Part shown: one piece after another, positions 6,301-62,072 of the stretch
How positions within the stretch are numbered: the first letter of the stretch is position 1
Layout of the letters: every line of letters begins with the position of its first letter
DNA from: Gammaproteobacteria bacterium
GTDB lineage: Bacteria > Pseudomonadota > Gammaproteobacteria > Steroidobacterales > Woeseiaceae
Reading direction: 5' to 3'
Length of the DNA: 64,000 bases
Assembly: GCA_029884165.1 (NCBI GenBank)
Contig: JAOUIH010000001.1
Location: 1-64,000, forward strand
The notes under the pieces: generated by a model
Database searches by the model: none
Told to the model about the DNA's origin: nothing
Seen by the model: only the letters and a program-made list of their open reading frames with translations
Position numbers and translations under genes: made by a program

Positions 6301-6521
6301 AGAGCCTGGACAAGCTGGCCGTCCTGATGCCGGGTCGATACGCGAAGAACGAGATCAGCAGCGGGTTCCTGGGCTCGATCGATTTCTACGCCTACCGAAT
6401 GCCGATCGTGCCGGAGATCGTCCCCGGCGGCGGCCAGAACTCGGCGCTGAGCGACCCGGTCGATGGCCAGGTAACGCCCGGCGCGACAGCGCGGGTGTTC
6501 CCGGGCGAGGCGCAGGACTGA
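3384..6521 (+). CDS. large TPR-repeat outer-membrane lipoprotein of Glt-like cluster
   Basis: The 1045-aa product starts with a type II signal peptide ending in lipobox LVAC (lipidated Cys about residue 19). The residue after the Cys is Gly, not Asp, so outer-membrane sorting is expected. TPR-like repeats run through most of the protein (YQMSRAYDELGRNDEAVEV, YKMGWTLYKQELYEDALRRY, NYQLANLLFENGDFGPAAVEY, LAFIYREDGQLLKSAEEHV). Size and architecture fit the long TPR proteins of Agl-Glt-type clusters (GltD/GltE group by architecture only). It overlaps the preceding gene by 4 nt. The last about 100 residues lack clear repeats. Confidence 0.85.
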   Translation: MTRFPRLPLLLLPVVLVACGTYDRNRGTLADLKSVEPDVADVHIDDSLERAEASYRRYLEQTPSSAMAPEAMRRMADLQIEKEFGIIGSGDLVEMAVAEDKVALARPPQAAMLPLEGDSPETGLGQGGYDESTEDFERRAAGEQRFVAAESGERLELPEGARETALSGPLEAIETYKRILEQYPNYERNDQVLYQMSRAYDELGRNDEAVEVMARLIAGYPYSRYIDEVHFRRGEYFFVRKKYLDAEESYSAIIERGSTSSYYELALYKMGWTLYKQELYEDALRRYMAMLDYRLSIGYDFDQAGETDDEHRVADTFRVISLSFSNLGGPEVIDEYFDEYGHRSFADRIYSNLGEFYLSKLRYQDAASVYNSFIARNPYHRVAPHFSMRVVEIYEEGEFPKLVVDSKKEFATRYALNGDYWLHFDPNDAPEVMGFLKTNLTDLANHYHALYQNDELLAERPGNFSEASRWYRQFLASFPQDDESPPINYQLANLLFENGDFGPAAVEYERTAYEYPRHEQSAAAGYAAVYSFRQELEGATGARRSDVRLTAVESSLRFAEAFPEHEEAPVVLGAAAADLYDMKDFERAIASARMLIERYPGAEQSLVRGAWVVVGHSSIDIAEYPDAEFAYTRVLQLMPPEDEGRAAIVDGLAASIYKQGEQANLLEDYRAAANHFLRISDVAPTSAIRTSAEYDAAAALVKLEDWGMAAGVLEDFRATFADHELAADATRQLAFIYREDGQLLKSAEEHVRIADESADPEVRRETLLVAGGLYEEANSVDNAIEVYERYIVEYPMPLDVAQETRMHVAGIHEDRGDMARYYDELREIVAADAAAGGARSDRSRFLAAKSALVLTEPLYERFAGLELIQPFEESLAEKQARMDTAMAAFEALVAYEVGEVTAAATFYIAEIYFDFSVSLIESERPEGLSSAEASAYELVIEEEAYPFEEQAIEVHENNFELLRVGLYNPWVQKSLDKLAVLMPGRYAKNEISSGFLGSIDFYAYRMPIVPEIVPGGGQNSALSDPVDGQVTPGATARVFPGEAQD

Positions 6522-6539
6522 CATGGACGGCGGCGAGAA

Positions 6540-7187
6540 ATGAAATACCCGAGCAATCATTCGACCCGGTCCGATAACTGGCTTGCCGTGGCCGCGATGG
6601 CCGCCGCTACTGCCTTCGGCCTGACCGGGTGCGCCACGCCCGTGGCAAAGAAGCCGCAGGCACGTATCGAAATCCAGGAGGAGATCGGCTTTACGATTAC
6701 CGAGGAATCGCCGGCAGATGCGGAGATCCGCGAGGACTACCAGGCGGCGCTGGCGTTTCTCGAGCAGGAGCGCTTTGGGCAGGGCATCGAACGGCTCGAG
6801 CTCGTCGTCGAGCAGGCGCCCGAGCTCAGCGGGCCGCTTATCGACCTCGGCATTGCCTACCACCAGAAAGGCGATCTTGCCGCTGCCGAGTCGGCACTGG
6901 TCAAGGCGCTTACTGTAAACCCGGAGCATCCGATCGCTCACAACGAGCTTGGCATCATCTACCGCAAGACCGGGCGATTCCGCGAGGCGCGCGCAAGCTA
7001 CGAGCGGGCACTGGCCGTATACCCTGGTTTTCACTATGCGCGCCGAAATCTTGCGGTTCTGTGCGACCTGTACCTGGCTGATACCTCGTGCGCGCTCGAT
7101 AACTACGAGGCCTACATGAAGACCGTGCCGGAAGACAACGAGGCCGCTATCTGGATCACCGACCTCCGCAACCGGACGGGTCGCTAG
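6540..7187 (+). CDS. TPR lipoprotein, GltE-like
   Basis: The 215-aa product carries a lipobox LTGC (Cys about residue 31) and three to four canonical TPRs in the C-terminal two thirds (PLIDLGIAYHQKGDLAAAES, HNELGIIYRKTGRFREARAS, YERALAVYPGFHYARRNLA). Small TPR lipoproteins of this layout are typical of GltE in Agl-Glt clusters, where they act in the periplasm or at the outer membrane. The gap to the preceding gene is 18 nt and the next start follows within 9 nt, so it is part of the operon. The upstream ATG in MKYPSNHS is supported by a GGCGGCGAG purine-rich stretch. Confidence 0.8.
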   Translation: MKYPSNHSTRSDNWLAVAAMAAATAFGLTGCATPVAKKPQARIEIQEEIGFTITEESPADAEIREDYQAALAFLEQERFGQGIERLELVVEQAPELSGPLIDLGIAYHQKGDLAAAESALVKALTVNPEHPIAHNELGIIYRKTGRFREARASYERALAVYPGFHYARRNLAVLCDLYLADTSCALDNYEAYMKTVPEDNEAAIWITDLRNRTGR

Positions 7188-7556: not shown

Positions 7557-7829
7557 CGCCCGGGACCTGCGCAGAAGCGCGGTTCCCGAACCTCGTCCTG
7601 TCGCCGGCCTGCACTACGCATTCTTTTTCGATCGCGCTGCGCTGCCTCTTGGCGCGGTCACACAATCCATCGAGCTCGAAATCACGGATGCAGCGCGCCG
7701 ATTGACGCACTGCGTCGAACTAATTGTCGTCGATCGTGTACTGCATCACATCTGCGGACGCCGACTGGACTTATTCTTGGACCCGTCCATGAGATGGATT
7801 ACGACATTTTGTCAAATGAGGATTTGGTG
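7557..7829 (+). other. intergenic gap before TolQ-like gene
   Basis: This stretch has no supported ORF. An imperfect GC hairpin (GGGACC...GGTTCCC, 7564-7590) could slow or terminate transcription after the TPR genes. TTGACG at 7703 resembles a -35 box, but a well-spaced -10 was not found. No riboswitch was recognised. Confidence 0.3.
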
Positions 7830-8486
7830 ATGGACGTTTTTTATTCAATCGTAAGGTTCTTCGCTTCGGGCGGCATCTTCATGTATCCGATCCTGGTCGT
7901 TTTCGCCGTTGGCGTCGCGGTCGCGATCGAGCGTTATGTCACTTTGTCGCGCGTGACCTACAGGAACCAGAGCATCTGGGAACAGGTGCAGCCACTGCTG
8001 GCAGAGGGTGAGTTCGAAAGGGCGCGCGAGATCACGGGCAAGGACGAATCCACGATATCGCAGGTCCTGAACATGGGCCTGTCATTGCAGGGAACCGTAC
8101 GCCGCCGCGAAGACATCGAGATCGCGATGGAGGAGAGCATGATGGAGATCGTGCCGCGACTCGAGAAACGCACGCCCTATGTCGCGCTGGCCTCGAGTAT
8201 CGCGACGCTTCTCGGTCTGCTCGGCACGATCATGGGCCTCATCCAGGCGTTCACGGCGGTCGCCAACGCGAATCCGGCCGAAAAGGCCGATCTGCTGACG
8301 GCCAGCATCTCCGTCGCGATGAACACAACCGCGTTCGGGCTGATGGTCGCTATCCCGCTTCTGGTCACGCACGTCGTGCTGACGAGCAAGACGGGTGAGA
8401 TCGTCGACAGTCTCGAGATGGCATCGGTCAAGGCGCTGAACGTGATTACGAAGCGCGCCAAGCGCCAGCTCGACATCGCCGCCTGA
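7830..8486 (+). CDS. TolQ/ExbB/MotA-family proton channel (AglR/AglQ-like)
   Basis: The 218-aa inner-membrane protein has the MotA/TolQ/ExbB layout: an N-terminal TM (residues about 12-32), a cytoplasmic loop with EEGMxExx-like helix (AMEESMMEIVPRLEKR), and two closely spaced TMs (TLLGLLGTIMGLIQAF and NTTAFGLMVAIPLLV) with the small and hydroxyl residues that line the proton path. ATG 7830 is chosen because GAGGA lies 8 nt upstream; an in-frame ATG at 7794 lacks a ribosome binding site. With the two ExbD-like genes that follow it should form the proton-motive-force-driven motor energising the AgmX-like protein and the periplasmic TPR parts. Confidence 0.93.
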   Translation: MDVFYSIVRFFASGGIFMYPILVVFAVGVAVAIERYVTLSRVTYRNQSIWEQVQPLLAEGEFERAREITGKDESTISQVLNMGLSLQGTVRRREDIEIAMEESMMEIVPRLEKRTPYVALASSIATLLGLLGTIMGLIQAFTAVANANPAEKADLLTASISVAMNTTAFGLMVAIPLLVTHVVLTSKTGEIVDSLEMASVKALNVITKRAKRQLDIAA

Positions 8487-8498
8487 GGATAAGCGACC

Positions 8499-8990
8499 AT
8501 GGCGCGACGACACCATTACAAGCGGCGTTCGAAAGACGCACCGGAGCTGGATGTCACCACCTTCCTCAATCTCATGGTGGTTCTGGTGCCGTTCCTGCTG
8601 ATCACCGCCGTCTTCTCGCGCCTTACGATCGTCGAGCTCAACTTGCCGAGCTCGTCGGGCGGGCCGGCGCCGGTACAGCCGAACTTCCGCGTGGAGGTCA
8701 TCGTGCGCGAAACCGGCCTCGAGATAACCAATGGTACGTCGATCATTGCCGCCATTCCGAAGGTCGAGGAGGAGTACGACCTGGAAAGGCTGTCGGAATA
8801 CATGGTCGAGCTGAAGCGGAGCTACCCGAGCCACGACTCGGCGTCAGTCCTCCTGGAGCCCTTCATTCCGTACGACTACCTGATCCAGGTGATGGACGTG
8901 GTCAGGGCCGTTGAAGTGGAAGGCGAGACTCCGGAAGAGATGCAGCTGTTCGCGCTGTTTACGGAAATTTCCGTGGGAGAAGCTCCGTGA
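8499..8990 (+). CDS. ExbD/TolR-family protein lacking the TM aspartate
   Basis: The 163-aa protein has a short basic cytoplasmic N-terminus, one TM segment (residues about 19-38) and a periplasmic ExbD/TolR domain. In ExbD/TolR the TM carries one essential proton-carrying Asp (typical pattern LIDVxxxLLxFF). The aligned position here is Asn24 (TTFLNLMVVLVPFLL). The partner gene at 8987 keeps the Asp, so a mixed ExbD dimer with a single protonatable Asp is likely. It overlaps the next gene by 4 nt. Confidence 0.9.
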   Translation: MARRHHYKRRSKDAPELDVTTFLNLMVVLVPFLLITAVFSRLTIVELNLPSSSGGPAPVQPNFRVEVIVRETGLEITNGTSIIAAIPKVEEEYDLERLSEYMVELKRSYPSHDSASVLLEPFIPYDYLIQVMDVVRAVEVEGETPEEMQLFALFTEISVGEAP

Positions 8991-9490
8991 GAAATACGCG
9001 CCGGATCAAGCGGATGTCCCGCAACCGCACGAAAGTGACGAAGATGAATCTTACGTCGCTGATGGACGTCTTCACGATTCTCGTCTTCTTCCTGCTGGTG
9101 AACTCCGGTTCCGTGGAGGTCATGGAAGCCCCGAAGCAGGTGACCCTGCCCGAGTCCATGGTCCAGGAAAAACCGCGCGAAACGGTCGTCATTTTCGTCA
9201 GCCCGGACGAGGTGCTCGTCCAGGGCAAGTCGGTGATGAAGGTCGCCGACATTCTCGAATCAGGCAGCTCCAACATCGCGCCGATCACAGAGCGCCTCGC
9301 CGAGCTCCGCACCAGCGTCGTAGGGCCGTCGACGAAGTGGGTATCGGAGAGCCAGGAGGTCACGATACTCGCCGACAAGTCCGTGCCCTTCACGGTGATC
9401 AAACGGATCATGACTTCCTGTACCGGCGAAGGTTACGGGCAGGTGTCGCTGGCTGTAATTCAGAAAGCCTCGCAGACGTCGGCGATTTGA
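8987..9490 (+). CDS. ExbD/TolR-family protein with conserved TM aspartate
   Basis: The 167-aa protein starts with GTG in a GTGA overlap with the previous stop. A basic N-terminus (residues 1-19) is followed by a TM with the expected acidic residue Asp27 in NLTSLMDVFTILVFFLL, then a periplasmic TolR-type domain. It is the presumed proton-responsive partner of the Asp-less protein encoded just upstream. In AglRQS and ExbBD motors, torque or force is passed through this subunit. Confidence 0.92.
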   Translation: MRNTRRIKRMSRNRTKVTKMNLTSLMDVFTILVFFLLVNSGSVEVMEAPKQVTLPESMVQEKPRETVVIFVSPDEVLVQGKSVMKVADILESGSSNIAPITERLAELRTSVVGPSTKWVSESQEVTILADKSVPFTVIKRIMTSCTGEGYGQVSLAVIQKASQTSAI

Positions 9491-9527: not shown

Positions 9528-10952
9528 GTGACTTCCGAACTGGATCGAATACGACAAGAGCAAAAGGCGATCGAAGCGCAGATCGTGCAGGTGCAGCAGA
9601 AGCTTGGCGCCCTGGAAGCCGATCTGCGCAACTTGGACGCCGAACTCGAAGCGCTGGGCGACAGGCGCGAGCAGTACGAATTGCTCCTCCAGATCTGCTC
9701 GGCGCTGGATCGCCTGGACGAGCTCGGGGCCTCCCGGCTCTTCTGGGGCGGCCGCCTGGGAGAGGACGTCTCGACTGATCACGTCGTGGACATTCGTGCG
9801 CGGGTGGAGGAATTCAGCGGGCAGTTCGACAAGGTCGGCGGCCGGCGTGAGGAGATCGTTCGTGAAATCCGGGAAGTCGACGAGGTGCTGGCCTACCTCG
9901 AAGACTCGCTGCTGGATCTCAAGGAAGCCGAGGAACACCGGCGCTCGGAGTGGCAGATCGAGCGCGAGCCCGAGGAAGAGCCGTTCCGCAAGCTCGTCAT
10001 GCCCTGGGCCCGGGGCTTCGAGGAAGACGACCGTTTCCGTAAGTCGATGCTCGTATCCGCGGCGGTCAGCGCGCTGCTCGCATTCCTGATCGGCATCATC
10101 GATCTGCCGATTCCCGATCGCGACGAGTTGCTGGAACTGCCCGAGCGCGTCGCCAACCTGATTCGGCAGGAACCGGAACCGCCGCCGCCTGCGGTGGTCG
10201 AGGAACAGCTGCCCGAACCGGAGCCGCTCGAGGCAGAGGACGAGCCGGTCGAAGAACTGGTGGCCGACGAGCAGCCGCCGGAAGTTACACCGGAGGCATC
10301 GGACGAACCGGCGCCGGCACCGGTGCCCGAGGAAAATCCGCAGCAGCAGGTACGCTCGAAAGGCATCCTGGCTTTCCGCGACAGTTTCTCGGAACGCGCG
10401 AAGGGCGGGCCGTCCGCCCAGCTGGGTGCATCCGCCCGGATCGGCAATGCGGGTGATGCTGCGGTCGGGCTGCCGACGCGGTCCATGGTCACGACGCAGG
10501 GACCGGGATCCAGTGGTGGCATCAACCTGGCGGAGATCAGCCGCGACGTCGGCGGCGGTGGCGGCGGTGGCATGGATGGTGTCCAGGTAACGCGTGTCGC
10601 GAGTTCGATCGGCGGCGACGGATCTGCCGACAGGCCGCTCTCGGGCGGTCCGTCAGCCGGCCGCACCGACGAGGAAATCCAGATCGTCTTCGATCGCTAC
10701 AAGGCAGCGCTTTACCGCCTGTATAACCGGGAGCTGCGGCGGGACCCGACGCTCCGGGGACAGATGATCCTCAAGCTGACGATCGAGCCGGATGGGACCG
10801 TGTCGATGTGCATACTGCAGTCGTCCGACATGGAGGCGCCGACGCTGGCCGACCAGGTCGTCGAGCGCGTCCTGGGCTTCGATTTCGGGGCCAAGGACGG
10901 CATCGTCGCGATGACCATAATCTATCCGATCGACTTCCTGCCAGCGAGCTGA
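9528..10952 (+). CDS. AgmX/GltJ-like TonB-type trans-envelope protein
   Basis: The 474-aa protein starts with GTG. Residues 1-125 are predicted coiled coil (cytoplasmic). One TM lies near residues 182-200 (VSAAVSALLAFLIGII). A Pro/Glu-rich periplasmic spacer (about 210-275) and a Gly-rich stretch follow. The C-terminal about 100 residues (EEIQIVFDRYKAALYRLYNR to TIIYPIDFLPAS) match the AgmX/PglI C-terminal, TonB-like domain. This fits the family role of coupling an inner-membrane TolQR motor to partners in the periplasm or outer membrane. Unlike myxobacterial GltJ, no zinc finger or GYF domain is visible at the N-terminus. It ends the cluster; a hairpin follows. Confidence 0.9.
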   Translation: MTSELDRIRQEQKAIEAQIVQVQQKLGALEADLRNLDAELEALGDRREQYELLLQICSALDRLDELGASRLFWGGRLGEDVSTDHVVDIRARVEEFSGQFDKVGGRREEIVREIREVDEVLAYLEDSLLDLKEAEEHRRSEWQIEREPEEEPFRKLVMPWARGFEEDDRFRKSMLVSAAVSALLAFLIGIIDLPIPDRDELLELPERVANLIRQEPEPPPPAVVEEQLPEPEPLEAEDEPVEELVADEQPPEVTPEASDEPAPAPVPEENPQQQVRSKGILAFRDSFSERAKGGPSAQLGASARIGNAGDAAVGLPTRSMVTTQGPGSSGGINLAEISRDVGGGGGGGMDGVQVTRVASSIGGDGSADRPLSGGPSAGRTDEEIQIVFDRYKAALYRLYNRELRRDPTLRGQMILKLTIEPDGTVSMCILQSSDMEAPTLADQVVERVLGFDFGAKDGIVAMTIIYPIDFLPAS

Positions 10953-11138: not shown

Positions 11139-11154
11139 TGTGATGCAGATCACC
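11139..11154. promoter_or_regulatory. CRP-type palindrome and promoter upstream of riboswitch
   Basis: TGTGA-N6-TCACC matches the CRP consensus at 9 of 10 positions. Its centre is 11146.5. A class II CRP promoter would place the transcription start about 41.5 nt downstream, near 11188. GATAGT (11177-11182) could be the -10 box. That start falls just before the first base of the riboswitch P1 stem (11191), so the geometry is self-consistent. Confidence 0.55.
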
Positions 11155-11190
11155 TAAATCGCGGGGCCTACTCTGCGATAGTTCCTCCCA

Positions 11191-11284
11191 GATTCTGACA
11201 AAGGCAAAACCACCGAAAGGTGGCGACGCAAAGTCACCGGTCTACCGGGCCACTGGGCCCCAGGACAGCGGGACCGCCGGAATC
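11191..11284 (+). ncRNA. cyclic-di-GMP-I (GEMM-I) riboswitch
   Basis: The element has the GEMM-I core. P1 is GATTC (11191-11195) with GAATC (11280-11284). AGGCAAAACCA leads to a P2 hairpin CCACC-GAAA-GGTGG with the GAAA tetraloop. The junction GACGCAAAGTCA is followed by the P3 arm CCGGTCTACC ... AGGACAGCGGGACCGCCGG, which contains the conserved AGCGGG-type strand that docks on the tetraloop. Vibrio Vc2 has the same order of elements. GEMM-I RNAs sense c-di-GMP and often control motility, pilus and extracellular-matrix genes. The downstream expression platform is not obvious: two short hairpins (11284-11303 and 11303-11319) follow without a U tract. Confidence 0.93.
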
Positions 11285-11347
11285 CGGCCCGCTATGGGAC
11301 CGGCAACAACGGATGTTGCATCGCTACCTCAGGGATCGAGGTCATAC

Positions 11348-11461
11348 ATGGCGCAATACGGCCGGCCGTCCGGCACGGATGGCAGACTTTCCCGCATGAG
11401 CCGCCGCTCGTACGAGCGGTGCCGCGCACCTGTGCTGGATTGCGCGGGGTGCGTCGCGTGA
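11348..11461 (+). CDS. small upstream ORF overlapping the giant gene's start
   Basis: The 37-codon ORF has an ATG with a GAGG ribosome binding site 6 nt upstream. Its stop TGA overlaps the GTG start at 11458 (GTGA). The basic, Cys-containing peptide (ending LDCAGCVA) resembles no family. Because the giant gene itself has only a weak ribosome binding site, translation may be coupled to this ORF. It could also be a leader read in a riboswitch-controlled way. No protein-level support is visible beyond the good initiation site and overlap. Confidence 0.35.
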   Translation: MAQYGRPSGTDGRLSRMSRRSYERCRAPVLDCAGCVA

Positions 11462-14400
11462 GCAGCGAACCGGGACCGCGCGCATTCGGGCGGGCGCTGG
11501 CGCGCGCCGCCGTGCTGCTCCTGGGCCTGGCCGGTTCGGCCGCCTGGGCTGAAGATTGTTCCGAATTTCCGAACGGCATCATCGACGGATTCGCCGGCGA
11601 CATCGCGCCGTCGCAGCTGCAGATCGACCGAAACTGCACGATTCGAAATTTCCCCGCCAGCAATCCGCTCAGCACGAATTTCAGTTTCCTCACGCAGCCC
11701 GGGCAGACGGACGAGCGCTGGCTGATCGTCTTCGACAACGTCGTGCACACGGGCCAGATGGCGTGTAACGCGGTCGCCGGGCATCGCATCTGGTTCGTCA
11801 ACGGTTCGTCGAGTTCGATCCAGGAGGGCTGCCAGAACCTGCTCATCCCGGTCGAGAAGATCGAAAAGCAGAACCCGGCCGGCACGACGACGGCGGCGAT
11901 CGGCGTGCCGTTCACCTACAGGCTGGTCATGCCGGTGTTGTTCGACGCCGGCACCGGCACCGTGATCAACGATTTCGGTTCGCTGAACGACCTGCACGGC
12001 GTAACGCTGACGGACGACCTCAACGCGACCGGCGTAGACCTCACCTACATCAGCCATACCGCGTACTGGCTGGACAGCGGCGTACCGGTCGCACACAGCT
12101 TCGACAATTCGAGCGGGCTGCTGAGCTTCGACGATTTCCCGATCATCCCCTCGGGCGACCAGATCGTCATCGAGCTGACCGTGGTGCTCGAGGATACGCC
12201 GCAGAACGTGATCGGCACGCAGTTCATCAACACCGCGAAATGGGATTTCGGCCGGCTCATCGACGACGTGTTCTACGAACCGCTGCCGGGCGAGTGGGGC
12301 ATATCTCCTCCCCTGACGATCGCAGGTCCCAGCCTGATCGTGACGAAATCAGGGCCGGCGACGCTCGGCAGGACGCTGAACCTCGGCCAGTGGGGTGAGT
12401 TCGCTATCGACGCCCACAATACCGGCCTGAGCGACGCGTGGGACGTCACCATCGTGGATCGCCTGCCGGACGGCCCGCAGGGCGGCATGTGCGACCTGAC
12501 CCCCGAACTTCTCGATGTGCAGGTGTACGGTCCTGACGGCACGACGCCGGTGCCCGGCAAGGGACCGCTTGCGGCCGGCACCGACTTCACGCTGAATTAC
12601 AACGATGCGCCGCAGTGCGAGCTCCGGCTGACGATGCTGACGCCGGAGGCGGCAATCGGGCCGGACGAGCACCTGGTGATCCGCTACCGGACTCAGCTCG
12701 ACGCCAACACCGACGACGGCGTGTCACTGACCAACGTCGCGGGCGCGATCGAGTATTTCAACGGCGATGACAGCAATCCCGACCGCCTGCGTTTCGCGCG
12801 GCCGCTGACCAACGGCACGCCCGGCGTCGCGGACCATCAGGACGCGCATACGGTCCTGACCCTGCTGTACGGCTATTTCTACGAGAAGACGGTCCGCAAT
12901 CTCACGAGTGGACAGGACCCGGCAGCAACCGCGGCACCGGGCGACACGCTGCGATACACGCTGCGACTGCAAACGACTGACGGCGCGCTCGACGACGTCA
13001 TCTTCCGAGACGACATGGGCTCGATGAACCCGACGGCCGTGTTCCTGCCGGGCACGCTCGCGCTGGTGCCCGGTAGCGTCCCGCCCGGCGCCGACACATC
13101 GAATACCGACCCGAACGGGGGCACGAACGGCGCGGGACTGCTCGACATCCGCAATCTCGACCTCGCCCCGGCTGACGAGGTAACGATCAGCTTCGACGTG
13201 ACCCTCGCTGCCGCGCTCCTCGACGGCACCGTCGTGACGAACCAGGCGAGCCTGCTCGGCTTCGGCGGCCTCAGCCTGGGCGTTAGCGACGACCCGACGG
13301 TCAACGGGCAGGCCGATTTCGACATTCCCGGCGACGAGGACCCGACCCGCGTCGTCATCGAGGGCATACAGCCGACGCCGCTCGTCAAGGCAACGACGCA
13401 GGCAACGGCCACGATCGGCGAGGAATTCAGCTACCTGGTCACTGTTCCCTCGGCGCCGCACCCGGCACCGCTGTTCGACGTCCGGATCCTCGACGATCTT
13501 GCCGCCTCCAGCGCCGACCTGGAGTTCGTCAGCGTCGCCCGCGTGTCGGGTTCCGGCAGCTGGACCCCGGTCAATACCGGCACGTCGACGAGCCTCGTGA
13601 TCGAGGACCCGGTCAACGGCATCGACATCCCGGTCGGCGAGCAGGTAGTTATCGAGATCACCGTGCGGCTCGTGGACACGCCGACGAACGTCGCGGGCCT
13701 GACGTTCTCGAACAGCGCCGCGTATACCTACAATCAGCTCGACAACGATCCGCTCACCGCGCGTCCCGGCGACCCGGGCACGAGCGGCCCGATGACGATC
13801 GTCGAGCCGGACCTTACGCTGGAAAAATCCGGCCCTCTGCAGATGCGGCTGAACCAGGCCGAGGTGTTTACGCTGAACGTGCACAACGTCGGCGACTCGA
13901 CGGCCTGGGGCGTATACCTCGCCGATATCCTGCCGAACACGGCGAACGGCGGCATGTGCGACGCCGCTCCGACGCAGGTGACGGCACAGCTCTACGAGGC
14001 GGACGGCACGACGCCCGTGGGTTCCGCGCTCGTCCAGGGCGTCGATTTTGCGCTGGCTTTCAGTCCTGCTCCCGATTGCGTGTTTGCGATCGACTTGCTG
14101 AGCGCCGCTGCGGCCATCGGGCCGGACCAGCGCCTGATTGTTACCTACTACGCTGAACTCGATGCGGACACGCAGCAGGATGCGGCCCTGACGAATATCG
14201 CGGGCGCGACCGAATGGCTCAGCCTCGACGACTCCGACCCGGTCGTGGCGGCAAACGCCCGCAACTACCAGCGGAACCTGACCGACGGCACCGTCGGCGT
14301 GCTCGACCACGAGGATGCGCACACGCTCGTGGAGTTCACGCCCGAGCTGATTTTCGAGAAGACGGTCGTGAACGTGACGACGGGCGACGACCCCGCGACG

Positions 14401-17400
14401 ACCGCGACGCCGGGTGACACGCTGCGCTACAGCCTGCGCATCGAGAACGCCAGCGATACCGCCGTTGACGGCTTCGACGTGGTCGACGAACTGGACCGGC
14501 TGAACGCCAGCCCGTCCTTCCAGCCTGGCACGCTGACCATCGTCACGTTGCCGGCCGGGGCCGATGACACGAATACCGACGCGAACGGCGGGGCGGCCGG
14601 CACCGGGCTCTTGGACATCCGCGGTCTCAGCCTCGGCGGGCTGGGCGACAGCGTGCTGATCGAGTTCGAAGTTACGCTGGCGCCGGTCATCGCGAACGGC
14701 AGCTACGTCAGCAACCAGTCGACTATCAATTACAACGGCTTCCCCGTCGCCCTGTCCGACGACCCGAACGTCAACGGCGCGGCGGATCCGGCGATCTCCG
14801 GCGACGAGGACCCGACCCGCGTGCTGATCCAGTCGGCGCCATATCTCAACATCGAGAAGGTCTCTTCCTACGAAACCGGCGACCCGACCGTGCTGCTCGC
14901 CGGCGAGACCTTGCGCTACACGATCACAGTGCAGAACACCGGCAGCGACAACGCGGCCGCAGTCGAGCTTGCCGACCAGGTGCCGGCCAATACGACCTAC
15001 GTCGCCGGCAGCACGACGCTGAACGGCGTCGCGGTGCCGGACGGCGCCAACGGGGCCTCGCCGCTGGTCGACGGCATACTGATCACCACACCGGACGACG
15101 CGACGCCCGGCGTTCTTGCCGCGGCGGCACCGCCGACCGCAGGCAGCACGGCGACGATCGTCTTTGACGTTATCGTGGACCCGAGCGTCGCGGACGGTAC
15201 GGTTATCTCCAACCAGGCGTTCGTCAGCGCGCCGCCCAATGGCCTGTTCGACCTGCCGTCCGATGACCCGCGCACGCCGGTCGAGGACGACCCTACGCTC
15301 GACATAGTCGGCGCGCTCCCGCTGATCTACGCCGAGAAATCGGCGGCACTGGAAGTCGACCTGACTTCGCCGGGCATCGTCGATCCGGGCGACACGCTGC
15401 GCTACACGATCACGATCTACAACAACGGCAGCGTGCCGGCGACGCTCGTCGAGCTGCTGGACTCGGTACCGACGAACACCAGCTACGTCGCCGATACGAC
15501 TACGCTTAACGGCGAGCCGGTCGGCCGCCCCGATGGCGGCGTATTCCCGCTGGCGGCGGGCCTGCCGGTGAGCTCTTCGGACCTGACGCCGCCGCTGCCG
15601 GGCACCGGCGAGGGCGTCCTGAACCCGGGCCAGTCGGCGACGGTACAGTTCAACCTGCTGGTCGACGCGGGTGTCGCGCCGGGGACGCTGATCACGAACC
15701 AGGCCGTGGTGTCGACCTATGAAGTGCCGGACCGGCTGACCGACGGCGACGGCAACCCGGCAACCGGACCCGAGCCAACAGTCGTGGTAGTCGGCGACGT
15801 ACAGCAGCTCGCGATCACGAAGCGGGTGCTCGTCGTCGGTGGCGGCATCGCCGAGGCCGGATCCACACTCGAATACATCGTCACGGTAACGAACATCGCG
15901 TCCGTGCCGGCACAGTACGTCGTCCTGTACGACGATCTCGATCTACCCGTGCCGGCGCAGCTCACTTTCGTCGACCAGTCCTGGACGATGAACGGGCTGG
16001 CCGACGGCATCACGATCGCCGGTTCGCTGCTGACCGCCGACTACTCGGCCGATAACGGGCCGCTCATGCCGGGCGCGACGATCGAACTCCGCTTCCGCGC
16101 TCTCATCGATGCGAGCCTGCCGATCGGCACGACTGTGACGAACGTCGCCGAGGTCAAGTGGAACGATCCGGAGCAGCGGGCCTCGGCGGAGGTCTCGCTC
16201 GACATCGGCGGTACGCCAGGTTCCGGCGCGCTGAACGGGTTTGCCTGGCACGACGCCGATTTCGACAACGTCTTCGACACCGGCGAAAGGCCGCTCGAGG
16301 GCTGGGCTGTCGAGGTGTACCTGAACGGCCAGCGCGTACACACCGCGTTCACGAATGCGAGTGGCATCTACCGGATCAGCGGCCTGGTCCCGAACTACCT
16401 GACGCCGGACACAGAGCAGTACGAGCTGCGCTTCGTTGCGCCGGGCGCGGGCACGCGTACCGCGCCGCTGGGCCTCGCCGACTCCGATTTCACGAACTAC
16501 CCGCAGCGGATCGGCAACATCGTCATTGCGTCGGGCGACAACCTGCTGAACCTGAACCTGCCGATCGACCCGAACGGCGTCGTGTACAACTCGATAGCGC
16601 GTGCGCCGATTGCCGGCGCGGTCGTCACGCTGCTGAGCGGCGAAAACGGTCCGCCGGTTCCGTCCGTGTGCTTCGACGACGCCATCCAGCAAAACCAGGT
16701 GACGCTGGTGGATGGCTATTACAAGTTCGACCTGAATTTCTCGGATCCGGCCTGCCCGAGCGGCGGGAGCTACACGATCCGGGTGACGCCGCCGTCGACC
16801 AGCTATGTCGACGGGCTGTCGGAGATCATCCCACCGGTGAATTTCGGCACCGGCAACCCGTTCAACGTGCCTGCCTGCCCGGCATCGGCGGACGATGCGA
16901 TCGCGGGCACGACGGCCTACTGCGAGGTCCAGCTCTCCGAGTTCGCGCCGCCGACGACGGTACCGGCTCGCAGCCAGGGCACGAGCTACTACGCCTTCCT
17001 GACGCTGGACGACAGCCAATTGCCGGGCTCGGGTCAGATCTTCAACAACCACATTCCGCTCGATCCGGTGCTGACGGGATCCGTCGCGATCACGAAGACG
17101 ACGCCTATGGTCAACGTCACGCGCGGCCAGCTCGTACCTTACGAGATCACCGTCAACAACACGTTCGAGATCGCCCTGACGGACGTCGAAGTCATCGACC
17201 GCTACCCGGCCGGCTTCAAGTACGTTGCCGGCTCGGCGCGCATCGACGGCGTGCCGGTCGAGCCGGCAGAGCTGCCGGGCGAACTCGTGTGGCAGAACCT
17301 CACGTTGGCCGCGACCGGGCGACACACCATCCGGATGCTGCTCGCGGTCGGCGCGGGCGTCACCGAGGGCCAGTTCGTCAACCGGGCCCAGGCCGCCAAT

Positions 17401-18093
17401 GCCATCACCGGCGCGGCGATGTCGGGCGAGGCGACGGCAACCGTGCGGCTGGTGCCGGATCCGACCTTCGATTGCACCGACGTCACGGGCAAGGTCTTCG
17501 ACGACATCAACCGCAACGGCTACCAGGATGGCGACGAAGCCGGGCTCCCCGGTGTGCGCCTGGTCACGGCCCGGGGGCTGGCGGCGACCACGGACGCGTA
17601 TGGCCGCTACCACATCACCTGCGCGACGACGCCGAACGAGAGTCGCGGCAGTAACTTCGTGCTGAAGCTCGACGACCGGACGCTGCCGAGCGGCTATCGT
17701 GCGTCGACGCGGCCCGTCCAGGTGCAGCGGGCCACGCGCGGCAAGACGCTGCGCTTCAACTTCGGTGCGTCGATACACCGGGTGGTCGGTCTGGACCTCG
17801 CCGACGCCGTGTTCGAGCCCGGCACGACCGAGATCCGGCGCATGTGGCAGCCGCGGATGGACCTGCTGCTCGGTGAGCTGAAGAAGGGTCCGGCAGTGCT
17901 GCGGCTGTCCTACCTCGCCGACGTGGAGGAACCGGGCCTGGTCGACGCGCGCGTCAAGGTCGTCAAGCGCCAGATCGAGCATGCCTGGGAGGAGCTTGCC
18001 TGCTGCTACCAGCTCGTCATCGAGCCCGAAGTTTACTGGCGCCTGGGCGAGCCGCCCGATGTGCCCCGGCAGGCCGGAGGTGAGCAACAGTGA
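11458..18093 (+). CDS. giant exported DUF11-repeat surface protein (c-di-GMP riboswitch controlled)
   Basis: The 2211-aa product (GTG 11458; an in-frame GTG lies at 11419) has a Sec signal peptide ending AAWA-ED. About ten DUF11/isopeptide-type beta-sandwich modules follow, recognisable by DPGDTLRYTITxxN, TNQAxxS and SDDPxVNG patterns, at residues about 130-1590 and 1874-1997. Two SdrD-B-like modules (GFAWHDADFDNVFD near 1592; GKVFDDINRNGYQDGDE near 2008) interrupt the array. Modules 1-3 and 4-6 are a tandem copy of the same three-module block. The C-terminal about 100 residues resemble a degenerate OmpA-like segment (AVLRLSYLADVEEPG). It should be periplasmic or surface-exposed and work with the OmpA/barrel protein encoded next (4-nt GTGA overlap). 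The exact role is unknown. Confidence 0.9.
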   Translation: MSSEPGPRAFGRALARAAVLLLGLAGSAAWAEDCSEFPNGIIDGFAGDIAPSQLQIDRNCTIRNFPASNPLSTNFSFLTQPGQTDERWLIVFDNVVHTGQMACNAVAGHRIWFVNGSSSSIQEGCQNLLIPVEKIEKQNPAGTTTAAIGVPFTYRLVMPVLFDAGTGTVINDFGSLNDLHGVTLTDDLNATGVDLTYISHTAYWLDSGVPVAHSFDNSSGLLSFDDFPIIPSGDQIVIELTVVLEDTPQNVIGTQFINTAKWDFGRLIDDVFYEPLPGEWGISPPLTIAGPSLIVTKSGPATLGRTLNLGQWGEFAIDAHNTGLSDAWDVTIVDRLPDGPQGGMCDLTPELLDVQVYGPDGTTPVPGKGPLAAGTDFTLNYNDAPQCELRLTMLTPEAAIGPDEHLVIRYRTQLDANTDDGVSLTNVAGAIEYFNGDDSNPDRLRFARPLTNGTPGVADHQDAHTVLTLLYGYFYEKTVRNLTSGQDPAATAAPGDTLRYTLRLQTTDGALDDVIFRDDMGSMNPTAVFLPGTLALVPGSVPPGADTSNTDPNGGTNGAGLLDIRNLDLAPADEVTISFDVTLAAALLDGTVVTNQASLLGFGGLSLGVSDDPTVNGQADFDIPGDEDPTRVVIEGIQPTPLVKATTQATATIGEEFSYLVTVPSAPHPAPLFDVRILDDLAASSADLEFVSVARVSGSGSWTPVNTGTSTSLVIEDPVNGIDIPVGEQVVIEITVRLVDTPTNVAGLTFSNSAAYTYNQLDNDPLTARPGDPGTSGPMTIVEPDLTLEKSGPLQMRLNQAEVFTLNVHNVGDSTAWGVYLADILPNTANGGMCDAAPTQVTAQLYEADGTTPVGSALVQGVDFALAFSPAPDCVFAIDLLSAAAAIGPDQRLIVTYYAELDADTQQDAALTNIAGATEWLSLDDSDPVVAANARNYQRNLTDGTVGVLDHEDAHTLVEFTPELIFEKTVVNVTTGDDPATTATPGDTLRYSLRIENASDTAVDGFDVVDELDRLNASPSFQPGTLTIVTLPAGADDTNTDANGGAAGTGLLDIRGLSLGGLGDSVLIEFEVTLAPVIANGSYVSNQSTINYNGFPVALSDDPNVNGAADPAISGDEDPTRVLIQSAPYLNIEKVSSYETGDPTVLLAGETLRYTITVQNTGSDNAAAVELADQVPANTTYVAGSTTLNGVAVPDGANGASPLVDGILITTPDDATPGVLAAAAPPTAGSTATIVFDVIVDPSVADGTVISNQAFVSAPPNGLFDLPSDDPRTPVEDDPTLDIVGALPLIYAEKSAALEVDLTSPGIVDPGDTLRYTITIYNNGSVPATLVELLDSVPTNTSYVADTTTLNGEPVGRPDGGVFPLAAGLPVSSSDLTPPLPGTGEGVLNPGQSATVQFNLLVDAGVAPGTLITNQAVVSTYEVPDRLTDGDGNPATGPEPTVVVVGDVQQLAITKRVLVVGGGIAEAGSTLEYIVTVTNIASVPAQYVVLYDDLDLPVPAQLTFVDQSWTMNGLADGITIAGSLLTADYSADNGPLMPGATIELRFRALIDASLPIGTTVTNVAEVKWNDPEQRASAEVSLDIGGTPGSGALNGFAWHDADFDNVFDTGERPLEGWAVEVYLNGQRVHTAFTNASGIYRISGLVPNYLTPDTEQYELRFVAPGAGTRTAPLGLADSDFTNYPQRIGNIVIASGDNLLNLNLPIDPNGVVYNSIARAPIAGAVVTLLSGENGPPVPSVCFDDAIQQNQVTLVDGYYKFDLNFSDPACPSGGSYTIRVTPPSTSYVDGLSEIIPPVNFGTGNPFNVPACPASADDAIAGTTAYCEVQLSEFAPPTTVPARSQGTSYYAFLTLDDSQLPGSGQIFNNHIPLDPVLTGSVAITKTTPMVNVTRGQLVPYEITVNNTFEIALTDVEVIDRYPAGFKYVAGSARIDGVPVEPAELPGELVWQNLTLAATGRHTIRMLLAVGAGVTEGQFVNRAQAANAITGAAMSGEATATVRLVPDPTFDCTDVTGKVFDDINRNGYQDGDEAGLPGVRLVTARGLAATTDAYGRYHITCATTPNESRGSNFVLKLDDRTLPSGYRASTRPVQVQRATRGKTLRFNFGASIHRVVGLDLADAVFEPGTTEIRRMWQPRMDLLLGELKKGPAVLRLSYLADVEEPGLVDARVKVVKRQIEHAWEELACCYQLVIEPEVYWRLGEPPDVPRQAGGEQQ

Positions 18094-21000
18094 ACGCCAT
18101 GATCATGCGTAGCCTGCTGCTGCTGATCGGCGCTGCGCTGGCATTGCCCGCGGTCCGTGCACAGGTTGTGGACGAAGCGGCCCTCGGCGAGACCGTCGAG
18201 CGACACCTGCCGATCGACGAACCGTACCTGCAGTGGGTCCAGGACCCGGACGAGCTGGCCACGGAAGAGGGCGACCAGATCGACGTCCGCGAGGTCATCG
18301 AGGACAAGCCGGAGACGATCAAGCTGACCGGCCTGGTGCCGCCAATAAACTTCGAGACCGGCGTCGCGCAGATTCCCGACACGACGGTCGTCGAACTCGC
18401 GGGCATCCTGGAGCGCATGCGGCACAGGCGCAATGTCCGCCTGCACCTGGTCGGCCATGCGGACAACCGGCCGCTGTCGCCGCGCCTCGCTGCCATTTAC
18501 GGCGACAACCAGGGCCTGTCACGCGAGCGCGCGGGCCAGGTGGCCGAGCACTTCCAGACGTCCCTGTCCCTGCCGCCGGAGGCGATCTCGTTCGGCTGGG
18601 CCGGCGATACGGAGCCCGTAGCCAGCAACGCCACGGAAGACGGCCGCGCACTGAACCGGCGCGTCGAGGTCGAGGTCTGGTATGACGAGCTGCGCGAGAG
18701 CGTGGCGCTCGAGGAGTTCCTCGTGCCGCACCAGATCCAGCGCGTCAAGGTGTGCCGGATGGAAACGGTCTGCAAACTCCGTTATGTCGACGGGCACTCC
18801 AAGCGCGCGCGCCTGCAGAACCTGATCGCGCCGCTCTATTACGACGAAGAAACGATAGAAGTCACGCCGCAGTTCGTCGACCAGGTGCAGCGCGGACTCC
18901 AGAATCTTCGCGACAAGCAGAACGTCACGGTGAAATTCGTCGGCTACACCGACGAGTCTCCGCTCACCGGGCGGACCGAACGCATATACGGCGACCACGT
19001 CGGCCTGTCGAAGGCTCGTGCGCGCCGCGTTGCGCTCGCGATACAGGAGGATCTCGGACTGCCGACGGCGGCCGTGGACAGCGACGGGCGGGGTGCCGAG
19101 AGGCCGCTCGGCGCAAACGAGACCGCCCAGGGTAGGGCGCTGAACCGCCGTGTGGAAGTCGAATTCTGGTACGACGATCCGCTGCAGGAACTCCCGAACG
19201 AACCGCAGCTGTGCCCGGAGTCCGCCGGCGCCGAACTCGTCACGAAGGTCTACGATCCGCCCTGGGGCAGGCTGGATACCGTCAGCTTCAGCGGCGGGCA
19301 GCCGGTGGTCCCGGCAGGCCTCGCCGACAAGCTCGCGCGCGCGATGCGCGACGTGGCGTCCAAGGAAAACGTGCGGCTGCGCTTTCTCGGCTACACGCGC
19401 AACGAGCGCCTCGATCGACGCACTGCGATGGTCTACGGCGACGATATCGGCTTGTCGGCATCGCGCGCTCGTCGCGTCATGGACGAGATCGGCAGCCAGT
19501 TGACCCTCGAGCCCGGCGAGATGGAGTTCGAAGGGCGCGGTTACCTGCATTCGAAGGACGTCGTGAACGCGGGCTTCGTCCAGGGCGATACCTCGCACGT
19601 CGAAATCCAGGTCGTTTACGACGAACTGGCGGTGCTCGACGACTACGAGGGCGTGGAAATCACGCGACTCACGCGCGAGATAGATCCGCAGAACCCGCTG
19701 GCGCTGAACCTTATGCGCATAACGGTCGACGGCGAGCCGATCGACGACCCGGAGCGCAGCTCCGCAGATATCCAGCGCTGCACGGACGTGGCTTTCGAAA
19801 GCGCGGACATCCAGTTCGGTTTCGACAACATGACCTCGGCGCCGCGGCTGGCGGTCAGCGCGCAGCCCGCGTCGGTGACCCTGCCGTCGCACCACGGCGA
19901 CCTGTACGTGGTACCGAAGGTCGAGCCGGTCCGTTTCCGCATGTACACGAACTACTCGCATTTCATCGAGCGGGCCGAGGTGCGTGTATTCGATAACGGG
20001 CAGTCGCTGGAAGCCGAGCCGCTGGCCGTCGTCCCGATCGATCTCGACGACGTGGCCGAGTGGGAGCCGCCGCTCGAGCACTTCCGGGCGCCGACGCGCG
20101 AGCTGGCCTACGTGTTGCGCAGCTATGGCCAGGACGGCAACTTCGACGAAACGCTGCCGCAGCCGCTGTGGCTCGTCTACGGAGAGACCGAATTCGACGA
20201 GAACGATCCCGAGCAGGGCGAGTCCCGCGCGCAGGATCCGTTGCTCGCATCCTGGGGCGAGACTTCGCTGGCCACGCAGAACATCGGCCTCGCGAGCGGC
20301 ACCGTAAGCGTCCGGGGCAGCGGTGTGCCCGAGGGTCACAGCGTGTGGGTTGCCGGGCGGCCGGTGCCGGTCGATCCCGACGGCAGCTTCGTGGCCGAGG
20401 AAATCCTCCCGCAGGGCAAGCACACGGTCGAGGTCGCGATGCTCGATGCGGAAGGCAACGGCGAGCTCTACCTGCGCGACCTGGAACTCAGGAACAACGA
20501 CTGGTTCTATGTCGGCATAGCCGACGTCACTCTGTCCCTGAACGAGACGAACGGGCCGATCGAACAGCTGGGCGGTTCCGCGCCAGCCGTAGACCCGACG
20601 TCTACCGCCGATGGCCGGCTCGCGTTCTTCGTCAACGGCAAGTGGGGCGATCACTGGAAGCTGACGGCGAGTGCGGACACCCGCGAGGGACCGATCGACG
20701 AGATGTTCGGCAATTTCCTGAACAAGTCGCCGGACTCGCTGTTCCGCCGGATCGACCCCGATTACTACTACCCGACCTTCGGTGACGACGGCACGGTTGA
20801 GGAAATGGCGCCGACGATGGGCAAGTTCTATGTGCGCGTCAGCGAGGACGAGAACTACGGCATGTGGGGCAATTTCAAGATCGGCTACATGCAGAACGAA
20901 CTCGCGCAGGTCGATCGGGGCCTGTATGGCGCAAACGCGCATTACCAGGCCGATGCCTCGACGGCTTTCGGCGAGCGGCGCCTCGTCGCCGACGCGTTCG

Positions 21001-23192
21001 TTGCGGAGCCGGGCACGATCCCCAGCCGTGAGGAGTTTCGTGGCACCGGCGGGTCGTTGTATTACCTGAAGCGCCAGGACCTGCTGGTCGGGTCGGAGCG
21101 GGTGCGCGTGGAGATTCGGGACAAGGCCTCCGGCATCGTGACCGGCGTGCTGAACCTGATGCCGTCGGTCGACTACGACGTCGATTACCTGCAGGGCCGG
21201 ATCATGCTGAACGAGCCGCTGTCGTCGACGGTGGACGACAACATGCTCGTTCGCAGCAACGCGCTGAGCGGCGACGAGGCCTACCTGGTCGTGCGCTACG
21301 AATACGCGCCGGGCTTCGACGAGATCGACGCAGTGGCGGCGGGCGGCCAGGCTCACTACTGGTTCGGCGACTACGTGAGGGTGGGCCTGACCGCCAACAC
21401 GAACGAGCAGGACGGGGAAGACAGCAGCCTGAATGCGGGCGACCTGACGGTGCGAATGAGTTCCGACACCTGGGTCAAGTTGCAGACCGCACAAAGCGAG
21501 GGCCTGGTTGCAACTTCGCTGCGCTCCGACGACGGCGGCTTCGGTTTCTACGGCTACGACCCGCTCTCGTTCCAAAACGCCCAGGCCGGGGCCTGGCGAG
21601 CAGACGTCAGCGCCAGCTCGAACGACCTGTTCGACTTCGGCGACAGTCGCATCACGCTGTATGTGCAGGAAGTGGAAGCAGGCTTCTCGGCGCCCGGGCT
21701 GTCGACGATCACCGATACGAAGAACGTCGGCGGAACGGTAAGCGTGCCGATACTGGATTTCGTCGCGCTGAACGCGAAATTCGACAAGCGGGAGCAGGAG
21801 CAGGGCATCGAGACGCAGGCCCAGGAAATCAACCTGAGCTATGATTTCGGCGACAACTGGGACGTCCGTGCCGGCTATCGCCAGGACGAGCGCGTGGATC
21901 GTTCGCCGCTGGTGCCGCTCACGCAGGAAGAGGGCGAGCGCTCCGATGTCGTCGTGCAGCTCGGCTACAACTCGCGCGCCGACTGGAACGCCTACGCGTT
22001 CATGCAGGAGACCGTTGCGACGACGGGCAACCGCCAGGACAACGGCCGCATAGGCGTCGGCGGCTCGTACCGGTACTCCGAAAAGCTGCGCCTGAATGCT
22101 GAGGTCTCGAGCGGCGACCTGGGGCCGGGTGGCCGGCTTGGTACGACCTACCTGCATTCCGACCGGACCAGCATGTACCTCAACTACGCGCTGGAGAACG
22201 AGCGCGGCGACAATGGCCTCAGGGGCTACCGCGGCGACGAGGGTAACCTCGTGGCGGGCGTGAAGACGCGCCTGTCCGACAGCACCAGCGTCTTCGTCGA
22301 GGAACGTTACCAGCACAACAGGACCATGACGGGCCTGACGCACGCGACCGGCGTGAGCCTCGCGCCGGTCGAGCGGCTCAACCTGAGCTTCAACACCGAC
22401 ATCGGCACCTTGCAGGATTCCCTGACGGGCGCCGAGACGGAACGGCTGGCGGTCGGCGTCCAGGTCGGCTATGGCTTCGAGCGGCTGCAGTTCTCCAGTG
22501 GCGTCGAGTATCGCAACGACCTCGTGCAGCAGCCGGACCTGGCCAGCAATGAGCGCGAGACCTGGCTGTTCCGCAACAACTTCCGCTTCGAGATGTCGGA
22601 GAGCGGCCGGCTGCTGGGCAAGCTCAATCACTCGCTGAGCGACAGTTCGCTGGGCGACTTCTACGCGGGCGGCTTCACGGAGGCGGTGCTCGGCTATGCC
22701 TACCGGCCGGTGACGCACGACCGGCTGAATACGCTCGTCAAGTACACGTACTTCTACAATGTCCCGACGACGGACCAGGTCACGCTGAAAAACACGGCCG
22801 CCGAGTACATACAGAAGAGCCACGTGGCGGCGGTCGACGTCACCTACGACATTTCACCGACGATATCGATCGGCGGCAAGTACGCGTACCGGCTGGGCGA
22901 GATCAGCCTGGATCGCGACAATCCGGAATTCTTCGACAACGGCGCGGCGCTGTACGTGCTGCGGGCCGACTGGCGCTTCCGTGAGCACTGGGAGGCGATG
23001 GTCGAGACGCGCCTGCTCGACATGACCGATCTCGGCGAGAGCCGCAGCGGCGCATTGCTGACGATTTCGCGCTGGTTCGGCGACAACGTGAAGATCGGCC
23101 TCGGCTACAACTTCACGGATTTCTCGGACGACCTGACCGACCTGGACTACGATCACCAGGGGCTGTTCCTGAACCTGACCGGCGCGATGTAG
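18090..23192 (+). CDS. giant envelope protein: three OmpA-like domains plus beta-barrel-like region
   Basis: The 1700-aa product starts at GTG 18090, 5 nt after GGAGGTGAG (ATG 18099 also possible). A signal peptide ends PAVRA-Q. Three tandem OmpA-like peptidoglycan-binding domains lie near residues 90-200, 250-365 and 395-510. The first two have the classic ALNRRVEV end; the third is altered (DTSHVEIQV). A beta-rich linker with an Ig-like module (residues about 740-800) leads to a long region (about 830-1700) of alternating amphipathic strands (DHWKLTASADTR, GNFKIGYMQNE, YLNYALENERG), consistent with an outer-membrane beta-barrel. It lacks the usual C-terminal aromatic residue (ends LTGAM). 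It likely anchors the DUF11 partner to peptidoglycan and outer membrane. Confidence 0.88.
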   Translation: MNAMIMRSLLLLIGAALALPAVRAQVVDEAALGETVERHLPIDEPYLQWVQDPDELATEEGDQIDVREVIEDKPETIKLTGLVPPINFETGVAQIPDTTVVELAGILERMRHRRNVRLHLVGHADNRPLSPRLAAIYGDNQGLSRERAGQVAEHFQTSLSLPPEAISFGWAGDTEPVASNATEDGRALNRRVEVEVWYDELRESVALEEFLVPHQIQRVKVCRMETVCKLRYVDGHSKRARLQNLIAPLYYDEETIEVTPQFVDQVQRGLQNLRDKQNVTVKFVGYTDESPLTGRTERIYGDHVGLSKARARRVALAIQEDLGLPTAAVDSDGRGAERPLGANETAQGRALNRRVEVEFWYDDPLQELPNEPQLCPESAGAELVTKVYDPPWGRLDTVSFSGGQPVVPAGLADKLARAMRDVASKENVRLRFLGYTRNERLDRRTAMVYGDDIGLSASRARRVMDEIGSQLTLEPGEMEFEGRGYLHSKDVVNAGFVQGDTSHVEIQVVYDELAVLDDYEGVEITRLTREIDPQNPLALNLMRITVDGEPIDDPERSSADIQRCTDVAFESADIQFGFDNMTSAPRLAVSAQPASVTLPSHHGDLYVVPKVEPVRFRMYTNYSHFIERAEVRVFDNGQSLEAEPLAVVPIDLDDVAEWEPPLEHFRAPTRELAYVLRSYGQDGNFDETLPQPLWLVYGETEFDENDPEQGESRAQDPLLASWGETSLATQNIGLASGTVSVRGSGVPEGHSVWVAGRPVPVDPDGSFVAEEILPQGKHTVEVAMLDAEGNGELYLRDLELRNNDWFYVGIADVTLSLNETNGPIEQLGGSAPAVDPTSTADGRLAFFVNGKWGDHWKLTASADTREGPIDEMFGNFLNKSPDSLFRRIDPDYYYPTFGDDGTVEEMAPTMGKFYVRVSEDENYGMWGNFKIGYMQNELAQVDRGLYGANAHYQADASTAFGERRLVADAFVAEPGTIPSREEFRGTGGSLYYLKRQDLLVGSERVRVEIRDKASGIVTGVLNLMPSVDYDVDYLQGRIMLNEPLSSTVDDNMLVRSNALSGDEAYLVVRYEYAPGFDEIDAVAAGGQAHYWFGDYVRVGLTANTNEQDGEDSSLNAGDLTVRMSSDTWVKLQTAQSEGLVATSLRSDDGGFGFYGYDPLSFQNAQAGAWRADVSASSNDLFDFGDSRITLYVQEVEAGFSAPGLSTITDTKNVGGTVSVPILDFVALNAKFDKREQEQGIETQAQEINLSYDFGDNWDVRAGYRQDERVDRSPLVPLTQEEGERSDVVVQLGYNSRADWNAYAFMQETVATTGNRQDNGRIGVGGSYRYSEKLRLNAEVSSGDLGPGGRLGTTYLHSDRTSMYLNYALENERGDNGLRGYRGDEGNLVAGVKTRLSDSTSVFVEERYQHNRTMTGLTHATGVSLAPVERLNLSFNTDIGTLQDSLTGAETERLAVGVQVGYGFERLQFSSGVEYRNDLVQQPDLASNERETWLFRNNFRFEMSESGRLLGKLNHSLSDSSLGDFYAGGFTEAVLGYAYRPVTHDRLNTLVKYTYFYNVPTTDQVTLKNTAAEYIQKSHVAAVDVTYDISPTISIGGKYAYRLGEISLDRDNPEFFDNGAALYVLRADWRFREHWEAMVETRLLDMTDLGESRSGALLTISRWFGDNVKIGLGYNFTDFSDDLTDLDYDHQGLFLNLTGAM

Positions 23193-48260: not shown

Positions 48261-48299
48261 TGTGAGCACCTTCACGGACCAAGCGTGAGCGCGCTCACA
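48261..48299. promoter_or_regulatory. two tandem CRP/Clp-type palindromes upstream of second DUF11 operon
   Basis: Site 1 is TGTGA-N6-TCACG (48261-48276); site 2 is CGTGA-N6-TCACA (48284-48299), whose inner 14 bp are a perfect palindrome. Each matches CRP consensus at 9 of 10 positions. Centres are 23 bp apart, close to two helical turns. The next gene starts at 48439. The rest of the 48021-48438 gap has no ORF and no c-di-GMP riboswitch. Confidence 0.6.
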
Positions 48300-48438
48300 G
48301 TTCCGGCAGAAACCGGGCCCTTTTCCTGACCCGCCGTCCCGTTTCGAAGACAGTCGGCCGAGGCGACGACACTCGCCCGTTTTGGCGCGCACGGCATACC
48401 GGACCGCATCGGTCCGCCCGGCACGCCGGGGACCGCAC

Positions 48439-49446: not shown

Positions 49447-49478
49447 TTTCCATGAGCGATACGAACCAGGGGGTTCAC

Positions 49479-49967: not shown

Positions 49968-50010
49968 GCGTATGCGCCTGGGCCGCCGTGCTCATGCGCG
50001 CCACGAACCT

Positions 50011-50067
50011 GGCCGCCCGCAGTGCTGCGGGCGGCCAATGCCGTTCTGCCGGCAGGAATGCCGGCAG
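50011..50067 (+). other. pair of intercistronic RNA hairpins
   Basis: Hairpin 1 is a perfect 12-bp stem (GGCCGCCCGCAG with CTGCGGGCGGCC, 50011-50036, 2-nt loop). Hairpin 2 is a perfect 9-bp stem (CTGCCGGCA with TGCCGGCAG, 50046-50067, GGAA loop). There is no U tract. They may stabilise the 5' mRNA part or partly terminate transcription, setting a ratio between subunits. Confidence 0.6.
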
Positions 50068-50100
50068 GGCGTTTATCAAGGCAACACAAGGAGTACCGTT

Positions 50101-51192: not shown

Positions 51193-51239
51193 GCGACGGC
51201 ATAACGGTGCTCGATCGCGTGCGCAGGTTTGGCCGGCTG

Positions 51240-61996: not shown

Positions 61997-62072
61997 GCCG
62001 CGTCATTAAATTGGCGCAGGATTTGGAGTAATGTGCCCGTTACCGGGCGCCCGGCAAGGAATTCGACGAACT

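Follow-up and report, generated by a model that had tools for sequence, protein, structure and literature searches.

The giant DUF11 gene in the window (the whole stretch of 64,000 nucleotides analysed here) is preceded by a c-di-GMP-I riboswitch behind a CRP class II-type promoter. We consider it highly likely that this riboswitch is functional and sets the expression of a short leader ORF, the DUF11 gene and an outer-membrane-barrel gene, by a competition for one strand of its P3 helix that would act on translation or on read-through. The riboswitch class is well known, and its conserved wiring to this operon context is apparently undescribed. The features of the promoter, the leader and the genes behind it are the following:

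11139..11154, + strand, CRP-type palindrome TGTGATGCAGATCACC with its centre at about -42.5 (exact-motif count and clade conservation)
11177..11182, + strand, -10 element GATAGT (in clade promoters SATAGT keeps a distance of 29.5-30.5 nt to the CRP-site centre)
11191..11284, + strand, c-di-GMP-I aptamer including P1 (RF01051, 72.9 bits, model match 11193-11281)
11191-11195 (GATTC) and 11280-11284 (GAATC), + strand, the two P1 strands, read from the sequence
11237..11242, + strand, P3 5' strand segment CCGGTC, which can pair with 11298-11303
11298..11303, + strand, candidate anti-aptamer element GACCGG, paired when the window leader is folded to minimum energy without constraints
11338..11342, + strand, Shine-Dalgarno-like GAGGT, read from the sequence, 5 nt before the ATG at 11348
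11348..11461, + strand, 37-codon leader ORF from a conserved ATG, its stop overlapping the GTG start of DUF11
11458..18093, + strand, giant exported DUF11/isopeptide-domain protein of 2211 aa (DUF11 149.7 bits, SdrD_B)
18090..23192, + strand, OmpA-domain protein of 1700 aa with a C-terminal outer-membrane beta-barrel (OmpA 74.9 bits, barrel model)

The Rfam covariance-model scan of the whole window returned a single hit, RF01051 (c-di-GMP-I) at 11193-11281 of the + strand, and the match spans all 87 model positions (1-87). The original prediction had read P1, a GAAA-capped P2, the GACGCAAAG junction and P3 from the letters and had proposed a scan with this very model; all these parts were found in the sequence and in the model alignment, and the score was high, 72.9 bits (E 2.3e-12) against a gathering score of 35 bits. 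The GAAA tetraloop on P2 is CACCGAAAGGTG, and GGC, GCAAA and CC occur in the alignment at the positions equivalent to the ligand contacts, which we take to be G20, A47 and C92 in the numbering of Vc2. Judged by its sequence, the element is a genuine c-di-GMP-I riboswitch, and it would be expected to bind its ligand. The host should make c-di-GMP, since its genome encodes 18 GGDEF domains. The assembly (4.28 Mb, 94% complete) holds eight RF01051 matches. Elsewhere in this genome two tandem c-di-GMP-I riboswitches stand before a predicted exported lipoprotein-like ORF (L199, G000:C144:27628-28031), and a c-di-GMP-I riboswitch stands before a spore-coat-U/usher-type pilus cluster (L203, G000:C9:5042-5128).

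A CRP-type site and a -10 element with a start just before P1 had also been predicted; the site and the -10 were borne out, both lying at fixed spacing in related operons. The window contains 4 exact TGTGAN6TCAC matches, where 0.19 would be expected; TGTGATGCAGATCAC at 11139-11153 (+) is among them, and counting from the -10 GATAGT places the predicted transcription start at about 11189, two nt 5' of P1. A TGTGAN6TCA-type site centred at -41.5 or -42.5 was present in all 24 Woeseiaceae-clade promoters tested, 18 with an intact aptamer and 6 with a decayed or lost one; the clade comprises the loci that group in the barrel tree, some under other taxon names. Counted from the SATAGT -10, the centre is at -41.5 in 22 of the 24 and at -42.5 in the window and L117, and the site carries one mismatch in four. 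The window promoter, with its TGTGAN6TCA palindrome near -41.5 and its -10, is thus of the CRP class II type, and CRP would be predicted to bind the palindrome. As CRP-type site and aptamer occur together in the clade promoters and the window's genome encodes a CRP orthologue (matching solved CRP with E about 1e-79), the operon is likely to receive two inputs, cAMP-CRP for carbon status and c-di-GMP. The CRP-type site is absent from both Acidobacteria riboswitch loci. A second DUF11/OmpA-type locus of the window, at 48382-57182, has two CRP-type palindromes close upstream (48261-48299), and the window scan gave no Rfam hit for a riboswitch there; there the DUF11 portion is spread across several frames (of 354, 174, 406 and 2040 aa), and either a broken gene or an assembly error may be the cause. 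Genes for a response regulator, a PhoR-type histidine kinase and PhoU lie at 59970-62783.

At least one RF01051 match was found in 97 of the 107 genomes of the family Woeseiaceae. With a model built from the family riboswitches, the aptamer was located between the TonB-like and DUF11 genes at 18 Woeseiaceae-clade loci (the window included) and at two Acidobacteria loci, counts that are not independent because the loci are related. The two Acidobacteria genomes contain no RF01051 match besides the operon aptamer, so that the riboswitch goes with the operon. The order TPR-ExbB-ExbD-ExbD-TonB-like-DUF11-barrel is common to the Woeseiaceae clade and some Acidobacteria, and the DUF11-barrel pair stands first in the cluster of Desulfuromonadales. 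The operon occurs without any RF01051 match in six genomes checked, from Microbulbifer (L131, L134, L135), Alcanivorax (L107, L118) and Alkalilimnicola (L112). Riboswitch presence needs 13 changes on the barrel tree, and gains and losses cannot be counted because many contigs end before the site. As far as these comparisons go, the placement of the riboswitch in this operon is conserved and not accidental.

At the 16 loci measured, a conserved ATG follows the aptamer end by 59-70 nt, and in the window (ATG 11348) by 66 nt. Most relatives have this ATG in the DUF11 reading frame; in the window, L076, L089, L087 and L159 it opens a leader ORF of 29-47 codons. At all five of these loci the stop of the leader ORF overlaps the DUF11 start as NTGA, so that the window DUF11 gene probably starts at GTG 11458 and is coupled to the leader ORF at 11348-11461 before it. 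The DUF11 ORF of the original prediction is real, and its start at 11419 was probably misplaced, as the comparison favours GTG 11458.

The leader between the aptamer and this ATG contains a candidate expression platform, a downstream element complementary to the P3 5' strand. In an alignment of 18 leaders, eight columns 3' of the aptamer match the P3 5' strand with 84.7% of their cells paired, as compared with 19-60% when slid by one to three columns, and the covariation score is 0.239 versus at most 0.100 when slid. None of 500 shuffles matched the observed cells paired or the score, counts which are not probabilities because the sequences are related. RNAalifold picked the anti-P3 helix unprompted. 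L098 shows compensatory changes (GTTACCG/TGGTAAC), as do L090 and L160 (GTCTCCGG/TCGGGGG). Those family riboswitches analysed that lie elsewhere give a weaker signal (mean z 0.2, versus 1.5 here, p 0.004). In the window itself, GACCGG is displaced relative to the conserved YGGTGA element of the relatives, and its pairing (11237-11242 with 11298-11303) is not significant taken alone (p about 0.1). Folds were computed for sixteen leaders (window to L153, with L162, L160, L120 and L124 outside the set), once without constraint and once with a forced aptamer, and the mean accessibility of the start region (-16 to +3) shifted by less than 0.1 between the two states in 15 of them; the exception was L076, where it dropped from 0.46 to 0.23 with the aptamer forced. 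Simple sequestration of the start region has no general support from the folding of these 16 leaders, and because accessibility is nearly constant in 15 of them a translational step is not supported by folding. The terminator scan of the window leader found no intrinsic terminator on the + strand.

In the mechanism that we propose, the transcript would begin about two nt before P1 from the CRP class II-type promoter. When c-di-GMP is bound, P3 would form and the downstream element would be freed from the P3 5' strand; competition for this strand would set translation of the leader ORF, and hence of DUF11, or read-through. The riboswitch would in this way set the expression of all the coupled ORFs, from the short leader ORF through the gene for the giant DUF11 protein to that for the OmpA/outer-membrane-barrel protein. 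Comparison of the loci shows the aptamer, the conserved promoter geometry, the conserved context and, in relatives, the covarying anti-P3 helix; translation would be the controlled step. Among known c-di-GMP-I riboswitches there are both ON and OFF switches (PMC6366702), so the sign of control does not follow from the class, and only the precedent of adhesins tilts it slightly towards ON.

The aptamer has decayed at several related loci. It is damaged or partly deleted in L149, L158, L166 and L085, none was recognised in L159 and L087, and the promoter is kept at all of them; these six loci form a natural series of riboswitch loss behind a retained CRP-type promoter. The decay or loss at six clade loci implies that c-di-GMP control is dispensable, and comparison indicates that it is lost in parts of the family. 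With decayed aptamers behind an intact promoter at related loci, the window aptamer might itself be vestigial, a recognisable sequence that no longer regulates in this genome, but we hold this to be very improbable because it scores far above the cut-off and its conserved core is intact, unlike the decayed copies (85.6 bits with model R1 for the window, about 18 bits or less for those copies). The leader ORF at 11348-11461 has also to be considered as an assembly frameshift artefact, with DUF11 truly starting at ATG 11348, since most relatives have the conserved ATG in the DUF11 frame. The distance from this ATG to the start of the mature-protein motif is about 203 nt in the window versus about 132 nt in L117, which a single lost or gained base fails to explain, and the same NTGA overlap occurs at four further loci; an artefact is accordingly improbable, though less so than a vestigial aptamer.

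A true c-di-GMP-I riboswitch could also act by transcription termination, e.g., Rho-dependent, and not by translation, which we regard as unlikely but as the more serious of these alternatives. In L099 (Desulfuromonadales) two tandem c-di-GMP-I aptamers, 228 nt apart, stand 5' of a DUF11 gene (L099:898-1204), and behind each of them lie a long G+C-rich hairpin and a T run, elements that the consensus scan did not list as terminators. The folded Woeseiaceae leaders, without a clear change in the start region, also leave room for termination. On the other side, the window leader is free of intrinsic terminators on the + strand, and the constant 59-70 nt between aptamer and ATG together with the overlapping leader ORFs fits a translational step. 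Anti-P3 competition that would set translation of the coupled leader ORF, or read-through, remains our preferred reading.

The nearest precedent for a dual cAMP-CRP and c-di-GMP input is V. cholerae gbpA with its Vc1 riboswitch (PMC4744006, PMC4545359). Both systems have a c-di-GMP-I riboswitch at the transcript start, a surface gene and a CRP-type promoter (cAMP-CRP-activated in gbpA), and both leaders lack an obvious terminator or anti-Shine-Dalgarno. Vc1 regulates the surface-attachment gene gbpA positively. The present system differs from gbpA in its target, a giant DUF11 protein together with an outer-membrane barrel, in the covarying anti-P3 element that the relatives conserve, and in the leader ORF that overlaps at some loci. 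The c-di-GMP-I riboswitch Bc2 of Bacillus thuringiensis controls a large adhesin, the cap collagen adhesin (PMC4933901); it has been described as an ON switch by transcription read-through (PMC6366702), whereas the window leader is without an intrinsic terminator in the scan.

The genes on the 5' side of the riboswitch promoter belong to the same conserved cluster:

1504..7187, + strand, three TPR proteins of the conserved cluster (domain hits, synteny in relatives)
7794..9490, + strand, MotA/TolQ/ExbB protein and two ExbD/TolR proteins (Pfam, synteny in relatives)
9528..10952, + strand, TonB-like protein with an AgmX/PglI tail (NF033768, 52.9 versus 40)

The original prediction placed c-di-GMP control of large surface proteins next to a gliding-type motor. 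The first part holds in that the riboswitch fronts a giant DUF11 surface-type gene; the motor genes, in contrast, precede the promoter, and the gliding equivalog models fail. Because the promoter sits 3' of the ExbB/ExbD/TonB-like genes, control by the riboswitch should fall on the DUF11 and barrel proteins and not on the motor, and read-through into the DUF11/barrel genes from upstream is possible. The system resembles Myxococcus Agl-Glt in its TolQ/ExbB-ExbD-type motor, its TPR proteins and its AgmX/PglI-tailed protein. Unlike those of Agl-Glt, the window proteins score below the equivalog cut-offs for GltG (45.9 versus 650), GltJ (21.7 versus 450) and GltE (34.4 versus 225); with the AgmX/PglI tail recognised and the GltG and GltJ cut-offs so far away, 'gliding-type' denotes a distant resemblance only. 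The giant DUF11 protein contains an RrgB_K2N isopeptide domain (66.8 versus a cut-off of 30), and its gene overlaps the barrel gene by GTGA at 18090. The structure model of the barrel is of moderate confidence (pLDDT 70, pTM 0.55) and resembles outer-membrane barrels generally, such as TonB-dependent receptors and LptD, with none singled out for a specific assignment. Most likely the DUF11 and barrel proteins are the portion of an envelope complex that lies at the cell surface, with their ExbB/ExbD/TonB-like neighbours supplying its energy.

A literature search, with most subscription papers outside its scope, found no report pairing DUF11 with a c-di-GMP-I riboswitch, AgmX or OmpA/ExbB/tetratricopeptide, which is weak evidence of novelty, and none pairing Woeseiaceae with c-di-GMP or a riboswitch. 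How the two V. cholerae c-di-GMP-I riboswitches work has been reported as unclear (PMC4744006), and the conserved covarying element 3' of the aptamer offers a specific and testable candidate platform for a gammaproteobacterial member of the class. The aptamer decay series shows how riboswitch control may be lost while the promoter stays. More tentatively, c-di-GMP might work through the anti-P3 switch on translation of the leader ORF, to which the giant isopeptide-type DUF11 protein and its outer-membrane barrel are coupled. These two proteins would then form the outer part of an ion-driven envelope machine, undescribed so far and present in several phyla, and cAMP-CRP would supply the second input. 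The riboswitch may serve as a regulatory clue to this conserved and apparently undescribed cluster, in which, across several phyla, giant DUF11 proteins are combined with an ExbB/ExbD motor.
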